This document shows, piece after piece, positions 56,601 to 61,933 of a stretch of 64,000 nucleotides of DNA. Below the pieces are notes generated by a model. That model was given only the letters and a program-made list of their open reading frames with translations, searched no databases and was not told where the DNA came from. This DNA comes from Synechococcus sp. Cruz-7E5 (GTDB taxonomy: Bacteria; Cyanobacteriota; Cyanobacteriia; PCC-6307; Cyanobiaceae), in NCBI RefSeq assembly GCF_024345995.1, contig NZ_JAGQCE010000001.1, positions 124,001 to 188,000 of the forward strand, in the 5' to 3' direction. How positions within the stretch are numbered: position 1 is the first letter of the stretch; the number at the start of each line of letters is the position of its first letter. The position numbers and the translations under genes are program-made.

Positions 56601-58463
56601 TCAACCCCGCACCGTTGGCTGGCTTGCTTGCTTCTTGCCGGAGCTGGGGGGCACTTTCTCGAGCACGAGCAGAGCTTCGATGATCTCCTTGGCCGCCGGG
56701 ACCGCCACGGTGGAGCCGTAGGCATTGCCCCCCTGGGGCTCATCCACCACCACCAGCACCACATAGCGGGGATCGTCGATCGGCAGATGGGCCACGAAGC
56801 TGGTGATCCGTGCCCCCGGGATATACACCCCGTTGAGGGCTTTCTGGGCGGTTCCGGTCTTGCCACCGATGCGGTAGCCCGGCACCTGAACACCCTTGCC
56901 ACTGCCCTTGTCCACCACCGTTTCCAGCCAGGCCATCACCTGCTTGGTGACGGAGGGTTCCATAACCTGCAGGCCATTGGCGGCAGGAGCCTGGGCCAGG
57001 CTGTCGCCGGAGCGCAGGCCGCGGGTGATGTGGGGGCTCACCAGTCGCCCTCCATTGGCAATCATGGCGTGCAGCTGAAGCAGCTTCAGGGGTGTTAGCG
57101 AGAAGCCCTGGCCGAAGGCGGCCGTGGCCGGCTCGATCGGCTGGGTGGTGAACTGCTCGCGGGTCTTGAGCTCTCCAGCCACTGCTCCCGGCAGATCGGT
57201 GTCAGGAACGGTGTCGATGCCGATACGGCGCATCCACTCCCAGTAGGTGGAGGGTTTGACGAGGCGCATGGCCTGCACCATGGCCACATTGCTCGAAACC
57301 TGCAGAACAGTGGCGAAATCAAGAGTGCCGTTGGCCCGCCGGTCGTGGTTGAAGATCGGCCAGCCTCCGATCGTGAGCTGGCCCACGTCGTTGACGGTGC
57401 CGTTGGGCTGGATGGCCTTTTCCTGCAGGGCAATCGCCAGGTTGATCGGCTTGAAGGTGGAGCCGGGCTCATAGAGATCCTGCACCGACCACTCGCGGAA
57501 CAGCCCGGGTGAGTACTTCCAGAACCGGTTCGGCTCATAGCTGGGACTGGAGGTGAGCGCCAGCATTTCGCCATTGCGCACATCCATCACCATGGCGGAC
57601 CCGCGCTTGGCCTTCCACTGCTTCAGCTGTCTGGAGAGGGCCTGCTGGGCCACCCGCTGCAGACGGGCGTCGAGGGTCAGCTGCAGCCGCAGATCATCGG
57701 TGTAGAGAACACCGGACTGGAGACCGTCGGGCAGGGGCGTGCCGTCGGCGCCGCGGCGCATCTGACGGATGCTTTCCTGGCGGCGCAGGTCTTTGTCGCG
57801 GCTCTGCTCAAGGCCCGCCTGGGCGACCCGCTCAAGGTTTAGGAAGCCGACCACATTGGCGAACAGCTGACCCTGGGGATAGATGCGCTGGGGGTAGGGC
57901 TCGAGGTCAAGGCCACTGATGCCCAGTTCGCGCAGGCGACGAGCGGTTTCTGGATCGAGATCAGTGGCGAGTTTGACCCCGGATTTGCGGCCGTCGATCG
58001 TGCTCATCAGATCGGAGGCGGGCACCAGCAGCACCTTGGCGAGCTTCTGGGCCGTCTCGGAGCTGCTGCGGATCAGGTTGGGATCGTCACCGGGAAAGTT
58101 GAAGTAGCGGGGGTGGGCCCAGAGGGTGAAGCGTTCCTCGTCGATGGCCACCAAGCGGCCCTTGCGGTCGACGATCGGCCGGCGCTTGCCGATCGGCTTC
58201 GTCTTCTGGGTCTGGATCGCCCGGGCCCGCTGTTGCAGCCGGTCGCCCTCTTTCACCTGAAGCCAGGCCAGGCGTCCGGCCAGACCGACCAGGGCCAGGC
58301 AGAGGGTGAGATACACAGTGAGCAACCTGCCAGCTGGCACGGGTTGCAGCTGGATCACCCGACGCCGGCTGCTGCGCGGAGTCTCTGAATCAGTGGAGCT
58401 GGGTCCCCCTCGATGCAGGGGTATGGGGGGTGACCCAGTGGCCGAGCGACGCACCACCCTCAA
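56601..58463 (-). CDS. ftsI: Septal peptidoglycan transpeptidase (PBP2-like, FtsI)
   Basis: A 620-residue class B PBP. One N-terminal transmembrane helix ([20 protein letters not shown]), a dimerisation region ([20 protein letters not shown]), then the transpeptidase domain with SxxK in [13 protein letters not shown], SxN in [15 protein letters not shown] and KTG in [17 protein letters not shown]. It cross-links septal peptidoglycan. TTG 58463 overlaps the upstream stop by 4 nt (TTGA); GTG 58457 is an alternative. Confidence 0.93.
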
Positions 58464-59029
58464 TACCCAGCCCGAACAATCTTGGGGTCGAGGCTGATCC
58501 GGCTGAGTTCCACACCGAGCGCGCGGGGATCAAGGGATTGGAGGTTGAACGGCTGGGGCTGAGAATGGCTTTGATGCTGGCCGGTACTGGAGTTTTGCTG
58601 GCTCTCCGATGCCCTGGCGCTGGGAGAGGGCAGATGGATCAGGCGCTGAAGGCTGGTCGGCACCAGCAGGCCGGGGCGCCTGGCCATCGCCAGGTGGTGT
58701 TGCTCCAGGACCGCCGTGGATTCCTGCAGGCGGTGTTCCAGCACCTGGGTCGACTCCAGCCGCTCAAAACTGCTGGTCCACTGTCCCTGCCAGTGCAGGG
58801 TGAGGACGGTGAGGCCAACCATCGAGAGGCCTAAGGCCACCAGCAGGCCATCAGAGGCCCTGTGCAGACCAGCCAGCCAGGGGGCCTGACGCACCACACG
58901 CCTGGCGGAGAAAGAGCCCTGGATCAGCTCCAGAGAACGGCGCCTGAAGAAGGGCTGGGGCGACGGAACGGCGACCACCGGAACCTGACGAATCTCCGCA
59001 AGTGAACCATGGGGCGCAAGGGGCAGCAA
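58460..59029 (-). CDS. Single-pass membrane protein upstream of ftsI, candidate FtsL
   Basis: A 189-residue protein with a cytoplasmic basic N-terminus, one transmembrane helix (61-80, GLLVALGLSMVGLTVLTLHW) and a following helix with heptad-like leucines (89-113, ERLESTQVLEHRLQESTAVL). A proline/serine-rich tail ends the chain. FtsL has this bitopic layout and in E. coli is encoded just before ftsI; sequence similarity is low. Coupled by a 4-nt overlap to ftsI and 8 nt after the CPBP protease gene. The assignment is inference from topology and position. Confidence 0.65.
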   Translation of the reverse strand: MLPLAPHGSLAEIRQVPVVAVPSPQPFFRRRSLELIQGSFSARRVVRQAPWLAGLHRASDGLLVALGLSMVGLTVLTLHWQGQWTSSFERLESTQVLEHRLQESTAVLEQHHLAMARRPGLLVPTSLQRLIHLPSPSARASESQQNSSTGQHQSHSQPQPFNLQSLDPRALGVELSRISLDPKIVRAGY

Positions 59030-59037
59030 GCCAACGA

Positions 59038-60456
59038 TCAGCGAGCCAGCAACAGCAGGTTGGCGAAGGTGAGTCCGTTCCAGAGAGCATGGAGCCCCAC
59101 ACAGGTGCTCAGGCGTCCACTACTGAGACGCAGCCAGCCCAGGCCCAGGCCGAGGGTGAACAGGGGAGGGAACTCTCCGAGGCTGAGGTGGGCGATGCCG
59201 AAAACTGCGCTGCTGAGCAACACCGCGGACAGGGGGCCGAGCTCCCGTCCCAGCACCGGCAGCAACACCCCCCGGAAGATGGTTTCCTCGAACAGGGGGG
59301 CCAGCACGATCGCCGTGAAGGCGAAACAGGCAAGGGTCAGGCCGTTACCGCTGCGCAGCACCAGCTCCAGCAGAGGATTGCTCCCGCCGATGTCGCTCCA
59401 GACGAGCTGCTGCAGCCAGCCGACCAACGCCACCAGGGGCAGCACGATCAGCAGATACTTCAGCGACTTGCGCAGGGCTGAACCAACCGGCCGCCAGCGG
59501 AACTGCAGCCAGCCCCCCTGCGGGGCCTCGCCCCTCGAGCGCAGCAGCCAGAAGAGCATCAGCAGCGGCGCGGCCATCAGGCCGAGGTACATGGCGAGAA
59601 CCGTGACGCCATCAGCGAGGGGAGGCTTGATGGCCAGTGCGGAGAGAGTGGCCTGCAGCAGGGGGCTCAGCAGCACCGGCGTGAGGACTTCCCCCAGCAG
59701 CACGAACCCTCCGGCGATCAGCAGCACCACATCGATCACCCCCAGGTCGGGGCCGACCAGGCCAGGCAGCGGCTGTTGCTTGCCGCGCCAGCGCAGCCAG
59801 CCTTCCCGCAGAAGCAGCACCAGCCCAACCAGCAGGGCCAGGGCTGGCAGCAGGTTGATGCCCAGGAGCTGGAGCAGGGCGCGCCGCTCGGCAGCAGGCT
59901 CGCCGCAGTCGCTGCTGTTCGCCAGCACCTGGCAGCTCAGGCGCCGCACCAGCGGGTCCTCGAGCATGCCCAGCGCCTCGGCGGGCATGGTGCCGGCTTG
60001 GGGCAGCATCAGCAGCTGCTCGATCAGGGCCTGATCATCGGCGCTGGCAAGCAGTTGCAATTGCAGCAGCAGGGGGCGGGCGGCGGCCGGTTGTCCCTGG
60101 CGCAACTGCAGCAGCGCCCGCTCCAGCAGGCTGATCCTGGCCTCCCGTTCACCGGACGCCTGAGCGGCCGCTGAAGCCGTTGTGCTGTCGCCGCCCTCCT
60201 CTGCCTGCTGCTCCAGCTCAGCCAGCAACAGCCCTCCCGGGTCTTCGCCCACCAGGAGCGGCTGCAGCGAGGGCGGAATCGCCGGTGCTGCCAACGCACT
60301 CAGCTCCAGTTGCCGCCTGGAAAGGTCGTTACCCACCGATGGGCGCTCCAGACTCTCCAGCAGACCGTTGAGCCAGAGCAGCAGGCTCAGCAGCAGGCTG
60401 ACCATGGCCAGCCCCACTTTCAGGGACCCGGCCCGTCCTCGCCCTGCTGTTGCCAC
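59038..60456 (-). CDS. CPBP-family intramembrane protease
   Basis: About 472 residues from GTG 60456, which has AGGAG at a 5-nt distance (the longer frame is open to 60699 but overlaps the divergent phosphatase gene). Residues 17-30 make one helix, then a long soluble region with repeated Leu/Gln helices, then at least six helices. The CPBP (Abi) domain has EETIFRGVLLPVLGRELG with the Glu pair, GIAHLSLGEFPPLF and GLHALWNGLTFANL with conserved His. It may cleave membrane proteins; substrates are unknown. First gene of the run toward ftsL candidate-ftsI. Confidence 0.85.
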   Translation of the reverse strand: MATAGRGRAGSLKVGLAMVSLLLSLLLWLNGLLESLERPSVGNDLSRRQLELSALAAPAIPPSLQPLLVGEDPGGLLLAELEQQAEEGGDSTTASAAAQASGEREARISLLERALLQLRQGQPAAARPLLLQLQLLASADDQALIEQLLMLPQAGTMPAEALGMLEDPLVRRLSCQVLANSSDCGEPAAERRALLQLLGINLLPALALLVGLVLLLREGWLRWRGKQQPLPGLVGPDLGVIDVVLLIAGGFVLLGEVLTPVLLSPLLQATLSALAIKPPLADGVTVLAMYLGLMAAPLLMLFWLLRSRGEAPQGGWLQFRWRPVGSALRKSLKYLLIVLPLVALVGWLQQLVWSDIGGSNPLLELVLRSGNGLTLACFAFTAIVLAPLFEETIFRGVLLPVLGRELGPLSAVLLSSAVFGIAHLSLGEFPPLFTLGLGLGWLRLSSGRLSTCVGLHALWNGLTFANLLLLAR

Positions 60457-60550
60457 CCCAACTCCTCGCACTGGCCCGATTCTCCCTTGAGCCCGACAGG
60501 CAGCCGTAAGCGGAAGCGGCGATGAGCCGTGCAGGAATCCCTCCCATACG

Positions 60551-61933
60551 ATGACGGCGCTTCCAGCTCCAGACCCCGTGCCCCTCCGGCTCCTGCTCGT
60601 CCGCCATGGACTCAGCAGCTTCAACACCGAGCACCGCATCCAGGGCCGGGATGATCTCTCCTCCCTCACCGACGAGGGCCAACGCCAGGCCCGTCTCACT
60701 GGCGCAGCGCTGGCGGACCTTCGCCTCGATGCCGTCTACAGCTCCCCCCTGAGCCGTGCCGCCAACACAGCCGCCCAGCTGCTCGAAGCCCATGGGGGTG
60801 GGCTCGGCGCCGAGCTTGACGACGACCTGCTGGAGGTGGACCTGGCCCCCTGGTGCGGCCTGCTTGGAAGTGAGGTGAAAGAGCGCTTTCCCGAGGCCTA
60901 CCGCCTGTGGAGGGAGGCTCCCGATCAGCTGGAGCTGGAACGCTCCGATGGCAGCAGATTCCGGCCGATTCCAGAGCTGATGGACCAGGCCCGCCGCTGG
61001 GTGGATCGCCTTGAGCGTGAGCATCTCGATCAGGCTGATCAGGCGGGAGACGATCTGAACACGGTGCTGGTGGTGGCCCACAGCGCCATCCTGCGCTGCC
61101 TGGTGCTGCAGTTGCTCGGGCTCCCCGCCAGCCGCTTCCAGGGACTGCGTCTCGATAATGCCTCCCTCTCGGTGTTCAACCTGCAGCGTCAGGCAAGCGG
61201 CGTGCAGGTGCAGATCGAATCGCTCAATGTCACCGCTCACCTGGGCACCCGACTGCCGCCCAAGGGACCAGGAGCACGCCTGCTGCTGGTGCGCCACGGC
61301 GAAACCGACTGGAACCGCCAGGGTCGCTTCCAGGGTCAGATCGATATTCCCCTCAACAGCACTGGTCTGGCCCAGGCACGCTCCGCTGCCGACTTCCTCA
61401 GCGCCGTGCCGATCCAGAAGGCCTTCACCAGCTCGATGGCCAGGCCCCGCCAGACCGCCGAAGCCATCCTCACCGCCCATCCCGAAGTGACGCTCCACAG
61501 CCAGGAGGGCCTGGTGGAGATCGGTCACGGCCGATGGGAGGGGCGCCTGGAGCAGGAGATCTCTCAGGAATGGGGGGAGTTGCTGCAGCAGTGGAAAGAT
61601 GCGCCCCACACCGTGCAGATGCCAGAAGGTGAGAATCTGCAGCAGGTCTGGGACCGCTCGCTGGCGTGCTGGAGGGCTCTGGCTGCTGGTTTGGAGGCGG
61701 GGGAGACCGCCCTGGTGGTGGCCCATGACGCCGTCAACAAAACGATCCTCTGTGCCCTGCTGGGACTGACCCCAGCCGACATCTGGATGGTCAAGCAGGG
61801 CAACGGCGGGGTGAGTGTGATCGACTGGCCGCCGCCGGACAGTGCTGGCGGAACCCTGCCGGTGGTGACCTGCTTGAACCTCACAACCCACCTCGGTGGC
61901 GTGATCGACCGCACCGCTGCCGGCGCCCTCTGA
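60551..61933 (+). CDS. Double-domain histidine phosphatase (phosphoglycerate mutase-like)
   Basis: A 460-residue protein with two tandem histidine-phosphatase domains. Domain 1: RHG at 18-20 (LLLVRHGLSSFNTEHRIQGR) and the second His in LVVAHSAILRCL. Domain 2: LLLVRHGETDWNRQGRFQGQ near residue 250 and VVAHDAVNKTILCALLGL. Both keep RHG and the distal His, so both may be active. Some cyanobacterial homologs act as phosphoserine or 2-carboxy-D-arabinitol-1-phosphate phosphatases; the substrate cannot be told. The stop overlaps the next start by 1 nt (TGATG). Confidence 0.88.
   Translation: MTALPAPDPVPLRLLLVRHGLSSFNTEHRIQGRDDLSSLTDEGQRQARLTGAALADLRLDAVYSSPLSRAANTAAQLLEAHGGGLGAELDDDLLEVDLAPWCGLLGSEVKERFPEAYRLWREAPDQLELERSDGSRFRPIPELMDQARRWVDRLEREHLDQADQAGDDLNTVLVVAHSAILRCLVLQLLGLPASRFQGLRLDNASLSVFNLQRQASGVQVQIESLNVTAHLGTRLPPKGPGARLLLVRHGETDWNRQGRFQGQIDIPLNSTGLAQARSAADFLSAVPIQKAFTSSMARPRQTAEAILTAHPEVTLHSQEGLVEIGHGRWEGRLEQEISQEWGELLQQWKDAPHTVQMPEGENLQQVWDRSLACWRALAAGLEAGETALVVAHDAVNKTILCALLGLTPADIWMVKQGNGGVSVIDWPPPDSAGGTLPVVTCLNLTTHLGGVIDRTAAGAL

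Follow-up and report, generated by a model that had tools for sequence, protein, structure and literature searches.

A near-universal gene of Cyanobacteriia, mostly found directly upstream of ftsI, very probably encodes a divergent FtsL

The ftsI locus of Synechococcus sp. Cruz-7E5

The window analyzed here is a stretch of 64,000 nucleotides from one contig of Synechococcus sp. Cruz-7E5. On its minus strand a gene for a CPBP (Rce1-like) intramembrane protease (59038..60699) lies upstream of a small gene of 172 codons, called ftsL-like below (58460..58978), which is followed by ftsI, the gene for a class B PBP (56601..58457). The first-pass annotation had proposed a longer open frame between the CPBP gene and ftsI, one that runs on upstream to a TTG at 59029 (58460–59029, minus strand). 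As to its existence this proposal stands: judged by its conservation the frame is a genuine gene and not a chance one, since its product is 79–93% identical to the proteins of same-genus relatives (the nearest named ones being Synechococcus sp. J7-Johnson, 1G10, and WH 5701) and since all 30 picocyanobacterial loci examined have the order cpbp–gene–ftsI. The proposed start does not stand. Homologs outside the genus begin with (M/V)VAVP, which corresponds to a GTG at 58978 in the window, and relatives start at this same Val/Met; the gene start should thus be GTG 58978, not TTG 59029.

The DNA that would encode the first 17 residues of the TTG form is non-coding, since it holds a conserved element, TGGTTCACTTGCG (58997..59009, minus strand; about 20–30 nt upstream of the gene start), that is shared between genera but lies in differing frames; when translated, this stretch reads GSLA, WFTG, or VVHL according to the genus. 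The fuller form of the element, (G/A)TGGTTCACTTGCG, is found at the corresponding position upstream of the gene in 26 family loci, across picocyanobacterial genera. With the GTG start the spacing between the CPBP gene and the ftsL-like gene, first given as 8 nt, becomes about 59 nt. The 4-nt overlap with ftsI that had also been described depends on a TTG start for the ftsI frame (56601–58463, minus strand), downstream of the ftsL-like gene, and this TTG is absent from several close relatives (L004, L006, L007, and L008). The start that is shared is a GTG 2 nt after the ftsL-like stop codon, which in the window is GTG 58457, the probable start of ftsI, and the overlap is accordingly without conservation in the sequences compared.

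Distribution and gene context in the phylum

The ftsL-like family is near-universal and single-copy in Cyanobacteriia. A profile made from its first members finds one copy in 111 of 114 genomes of this class and no match in 130 genomes of the other classes of the phylum. The later 65-member profile matches 378 of 390 Cyanobacteriia genomes (333 of the 336 that are of good completeness). These matches cover 157 of 160 genera, and there is one match per genome with a single exception. When the two tables of profile matches were compared by hand, 104 of 111 genomes had their best FtsI match directly downstream of the gene, with both on one strand; in the other seven (G039, G050, G054, G058, G099, G185, and G199) the gene is kept but relocated. 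A glutathione-S-transferase-like gene lies directly upstream or nearby in three of these seven (loci L076, L082, and L094).

In E. coli the order of these genes is rsmH–ftsL–ftsI. Of 20 ftsI loci fetched from the non-photosynthetic sister classes of Cyanobacteriia, 18 have a small gene immediately before ftsI and the remaining two show none at that place; rsmH precedes the small gene in 17 of the 18, and the contig of the last (L106) begins too late to tell. The best sister-class match of the window's FtsI is the FtsI of just such an rsmH–ftsL–ftsI locus. In Cyanobacteriia, two genomes of one oxygenic genus (G141 and G226; loci L278 and L277) carry a complete rsmH–family member–ftsI array, all on the same strand and separated by about 77 and 9 bases, and in a third genome (G039; L091) rsmH (confirmed as PF01795, 1.8e-99) immediately precedes the family member but ftsI lies at another site. 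The cyanobacterial family thus occupies the ftsL slot, as in the sister classes and E. coli. The E. coli-like position that the first-pass annotation had assigned to the gene is therefore borne out on the rsmH side by these three genomes as well as on the ftsI side by the 104 noted above. Most dcw genes have been reported as present in cyanobacteria and their cluster as almost completely dispersed, with ftsL unnamed in that study (PMC8871954); remnants of the ancestral dcw order, rsmH–ftsL in G039 and rsmH–ftsL–ftsI in G226 and G141, persist in some oxygenic cyanobacteria.

Architecture and conserved residues

The product is predicted to be bitopic, with a membrane helix that continues into the periplasm as in FtsL. 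AlphaFold models the 172-residue form with one unbroken helix at residues 33–99 (pLDDT about 98); the tail is loosely structured in the model. Within this helix the alignment places a hydrophobic membrane segment at about residues 43–63 (58790..58852, minus strand), and a periplasmic coil-like helix follows at residues 64–99 (58682..58789, minus strand), where hydrophobic periodicity peaks at 3.5–3.6 residues. This agrees with the topology first proposed for the protein, a single membrane segment and after it a periplasmic part that is helical and coil-like. A sister-class FtsL is modeled with a similar layout (helices 53–102 and 105–114). Among the 65 aligned proteins a tryptophan just outside the membrane (Trp67) is present in 64, and the conserved leucines Leu74, Leu84, and Leu91 are present in 62, 55, and 52, respectively. 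Beyond the coil lies a conserved segment, LVPTSLQRLIHLPSP (58622..58666, minus strand), which aligns with the tail segment of sister-class FtsL. The "VExxA" helix that follows the coil in the sister classes and in E. coli is missing in Cyanobacteriia.

The protein ends in Gly-Tyr (58463..58468, minus strand). The last residue is Tyr in 90 of 90 Cyanobacteriia proteins, 76 of which end in Gly-Tyr, and it is Tyr or Phe in all 18 sister-class FtsL proteins, so that it is aromatic in 108 of 108. It is conserved as protein, since neither the codons of the final two residues nor the stop codon is constant, and the start of ftsI is often many bases farther downstream. As read from these alignments, the C-terminal Tyr/Phe is a phylum-level signature and an independent link between the Cyanobacteriia family and the sister-class FtsLs.

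Relationship to recognized FtsL proteins

The small proteins of the sister classes can be taken as FtsL because they match curated FtsL models; 14 of the 18 match FtsL_Actino (NF053549; best 5.1e-7) and nine match ftsL_broad (TIGR02209). No member of the cyanobacterial family lies above the cut-off of a curated FtsL model (PF04999, TIGR02209, or NF053549); sub-threshold matches to ftsL_broad or FtsL_Actino occur in just 4–5 of the 65 members, and Pfam FtsL (PF04999) matches none of the 65. These curated models rise over their cut-offs in only 2 of 14 control genomes, and since they also miss many accepted FtsLs their failure here marks a limit of sensitivity and not a biological criterion; the missing VExxA helix is probably why they fail in Cyanobacteriia. 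The best Pfam/NCBIfam matches of the window protein itself, PepSY_TM (0.021) and lycopene cyclase (0.0043), were set aside as chance hits. Searches of the PDB by sequence and by fold were uninformative, the fold search giving no match.

Comparison of profile with profile (hhalign) does connect the families. The 65-member family matches sister-class FtsL at 95.7% with a score of 55.2, in an alignment that spans the membrane helix, the coil, and the tail segment, whereas control comparisons gave much lower values: 21.5 (4.6%) against sister-class FtsB, 22.0 (3.6%) against AtpF, another protein with a single helix and a coil, and 12–20 with reversed profiles. Permuting alignment columns within the membrane, coil, and tail blocks lowered the score to 16.1 (s.d. 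3.3), and in 100 such permutations 55.2 was never reached; permuting the coil and tail alone, or the membrane block alone, likewise never gave the observed score. When Cyanobacteriia were scanned by HMMER alone, with profiles of FtsL or FtsB from the sister classes, no match was significant, so it is the profile–profile comparison that links the families, and direct comparison of the family with the single E. coli FtsL sequence was not significant. The picocyanobacterial members taken by themselves have diverged too far to match sister-class FtsL (1.5%) but match the other cyanobacterial members at 98.9%; the argument is therefore a chain, in which the picocyanobacterial proteins reach the FtsL of the sister classes through the other cyanobacterial members only.

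Taken as a whole, the family shares with the sister-class FtsLs (NF053549, TIGR02209) the rsmH–ftsL–ftsI slot, the single helix running from membrane to periplasm, the hydrophobic segment after the coil, the C-terminal Tyr/Phe, and a significant profile match; it differs from them in having no VExxA, in its near-invariant Trp outside the membrane, and in falling below the curated cut-offs. The FtsLs of E. coli and Pseudomonas (PF04999; FtsWIQBL structures 8bh1 and 8p1u) are likewise bitopic, are encoded between rsmH and ftsI, and have a coil-like periplasmic helix, but similarity to them was not detected in direct sequence comparison, and E. coli FtsL ends in VVQK where the cyanobacterial proteins end in Gly-Tyr. 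The ftsL-like gene is very probably the cyanobacterial ftsL ortholog, descended vertically from the dcw gene between rsmH and ftsI and diverged past the reach of the curated models. The proposal of the first-pass annotation that an FtsL is encoded upstream of ftsI is thus upheld by a near-universal family, the rsmH–ftsL–ftsI slot, and a profile link to FtsL that withstands its controls.

It is quite improbable that this is instead an unrelated membrane protein that became fixed beside ftsI and resembles FtsL in topology only, such as a factor that specifically assembles or recruits FtsI. The family has no curated match, its tail is lineage-specific, and it lacks the VExxA segment, all of which would suit such a protein, but the profile match to sister-class FtsL is position-specific and survives all controls, the aromatic C-terminal residue is common to both groups, and the rsmH–X–ftsI slot is common across classes. 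Genome searches with FtsL models gave no other FtsL candidate, which also speaks against an unrelated protein; the genome of the window was checked for a different FtsL elsewhere, an outcome that had been named as counting against the proposal, and has no match to PF04999, to TIGR02209, or to the basal FtsL profile. A weak TIGR02209 match in another genome (G011; L063) proved to be an unrelated frame of 86 amino acids. A scan of genome contigs with the G046 protein gave no match.

A candidate FtsB and its bearing on the identity of the family

The sister classes have a recognizable FtsB (FtsB/DivIC, PF04977) encoded at other loci. In Cyanobacteriia, sub-threshold DivIC matches led to a second family of proteins of about 110–130 amino acids that have a single helix, a coil, and a tail resembling ERLAQEEGxLxxPNQRRVVW. 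It was found in 181 of 194 genomes, among them that of the window (match 9.3e-9); loci from other genomes are L128, L129, L134, L136, L217, and L221–L250. In profile comparison it scores 72.6% against sister-class FtsB and 48% against sister-class FtsL. This second near-universal family is a candidate for the cyanobacterial FtsB, an assignment less secure than that of FtsL.

That the ftsL-like protein is itself an FtsB/DivIC homolog relocated beside ftsI is most improbable: both are short bitopic proteins with a coil, and within the sister classes the profile of FtsL is similar to that of FtsB (94.6%), but the family compares with sister-class FtsB no better than with decoys, it occupies the ftsL slot and not the gene position of FtsB, it lacks the FtsB tail motif Gx(E)xLAR..LG, and a tail of the FtsB type is carried by the separate family in the same genomes. 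CyDiv (All2320) of Anabaena is a bitopic coil protein that is needed for division and has been proposed to be FtsB/DivIC-like (PMC4748335); it is reported to be absent from Synechocystis and S. elongatus (PMC7766704). It is encoded near glnB and not ftsI, and the ftsL-like family is near-universal, so in the features compared, position and distribution, the two differ. Within the loci fetched the second family does not lie beside glnB, and its identity with CyDiv is not indicated.

The neighboring CPBP protease

The product of the CPBP gene has a long N-terminal part. Its catalytic motifs EETIFR, FGIAH, and HALWN (EExxxR, FxxxH, and HxxxN) are all kept, and by these it is a glutamic-type (Rce1-like) protease, not an M50 protease. 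In Bacillus, FtsL turnover involves a protease of the M50 type. The first-pass annotation had imagined an M50/CPBP-type turnover of the division protein, and it would indeed fit such a scheme, in which intramembrane proteolysis by the adjacent protease sets the level of FtsL, that the CPBP gene adjoins the ftsL-like gene in 30 of 30 picocyanobacterial loci (more weakly in one further related lineage, G046) and has its catalytic motifs in place. But the linkage is restricted to the picocyanobacteria and this one related lineage, being absent at 54 other loci where the ftsL–ftsI pair mostly persists, and the CPBP type differs from the M50 type known to act in Bacillus. Neighborhood alone shows no substrate relation, nothing in the form of a cleavage site or a substrate points to cleavage, and the scheme is accordingly very doubtful.

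Proposed role and meaning

The first-pass annotation took FtsL to be unrecognized by sequence in most cyanobacteria, and two papers report that FtsL and FtsB are not found in, or absent from, these organisms (PMC4748335, PMC7766704). No named cyanobacterial FtsL was found in the literature outside subscription papers, so earlier recognition is possible. The reported absence of FtsL is probably undetected sequence divergence.

The Pseudomonas FtsWIQBL structure has an FtsL–FtsB coiled coil, an extensive periplasmic interface between FtsL and FtsI, and a contact with FtsW, and mutations in these FtsL interfaces abolish or bypass activation (PMC7614612). By analogy with this solved complex, the cyanobacterial protein most likely serves as a scaffold and switch between FtsQ/FtsB and FtsW/FtsI. 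As a bitopic protein of the inner membrane it would begin with a short cytoplasmic stretch; its one membrane helix would pass unbroken into the coil-like periplasmic helix, and after that would come a short beta-prone segment and a disordered tail ending in Tyr. Most likely it would pair with an FtsB-like partner and dock with FtsQ, and its periplasmic helix would press on the FtsI pedestal and the base of FtsW and so turn on septal peptidoglycan synthesis.

In E. coli, FtsA and FtsN act on FtsL. From cyanobacteria FtsA is absent and FtsN mostly absent (PMC7766704), so the input to the FtsWI switch must differ there, and the invariant tail is a candidate for this altered input. The role that we infer for the tail is that of a phylum-specific docking peptide (Gly-Tyr/Phe-COOH), which would provide FtsL with its own activating input to FtsWI or FtsQ in place of the FtsA/FtsN route; this is a tentative suggestion, rather unlikely as it stands. 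It includes the equally speculative notion that the tail persists even in proteins whose coil and post-coil parts have drifted. Such invariance of the C-terminal Tyr suggests an interaction that, to our knowledge, has not been described for FtsL elsewhere.

The reported absence of FtsL and FtsB left open how cyanobacteria control FtsW–FtsI. Recognition of this gene gives an annotation rule for nearly every cyanobacterial genome, namely the gene before ftsI whose product ends in Gly-Tyr. Should the ftsL-like protein and the companion family be FtsL and FtsB, respectively, concrete genes for both would become testable in model strains, and the FtsQLB control point would be ancestral and kept in cyanobacteria.
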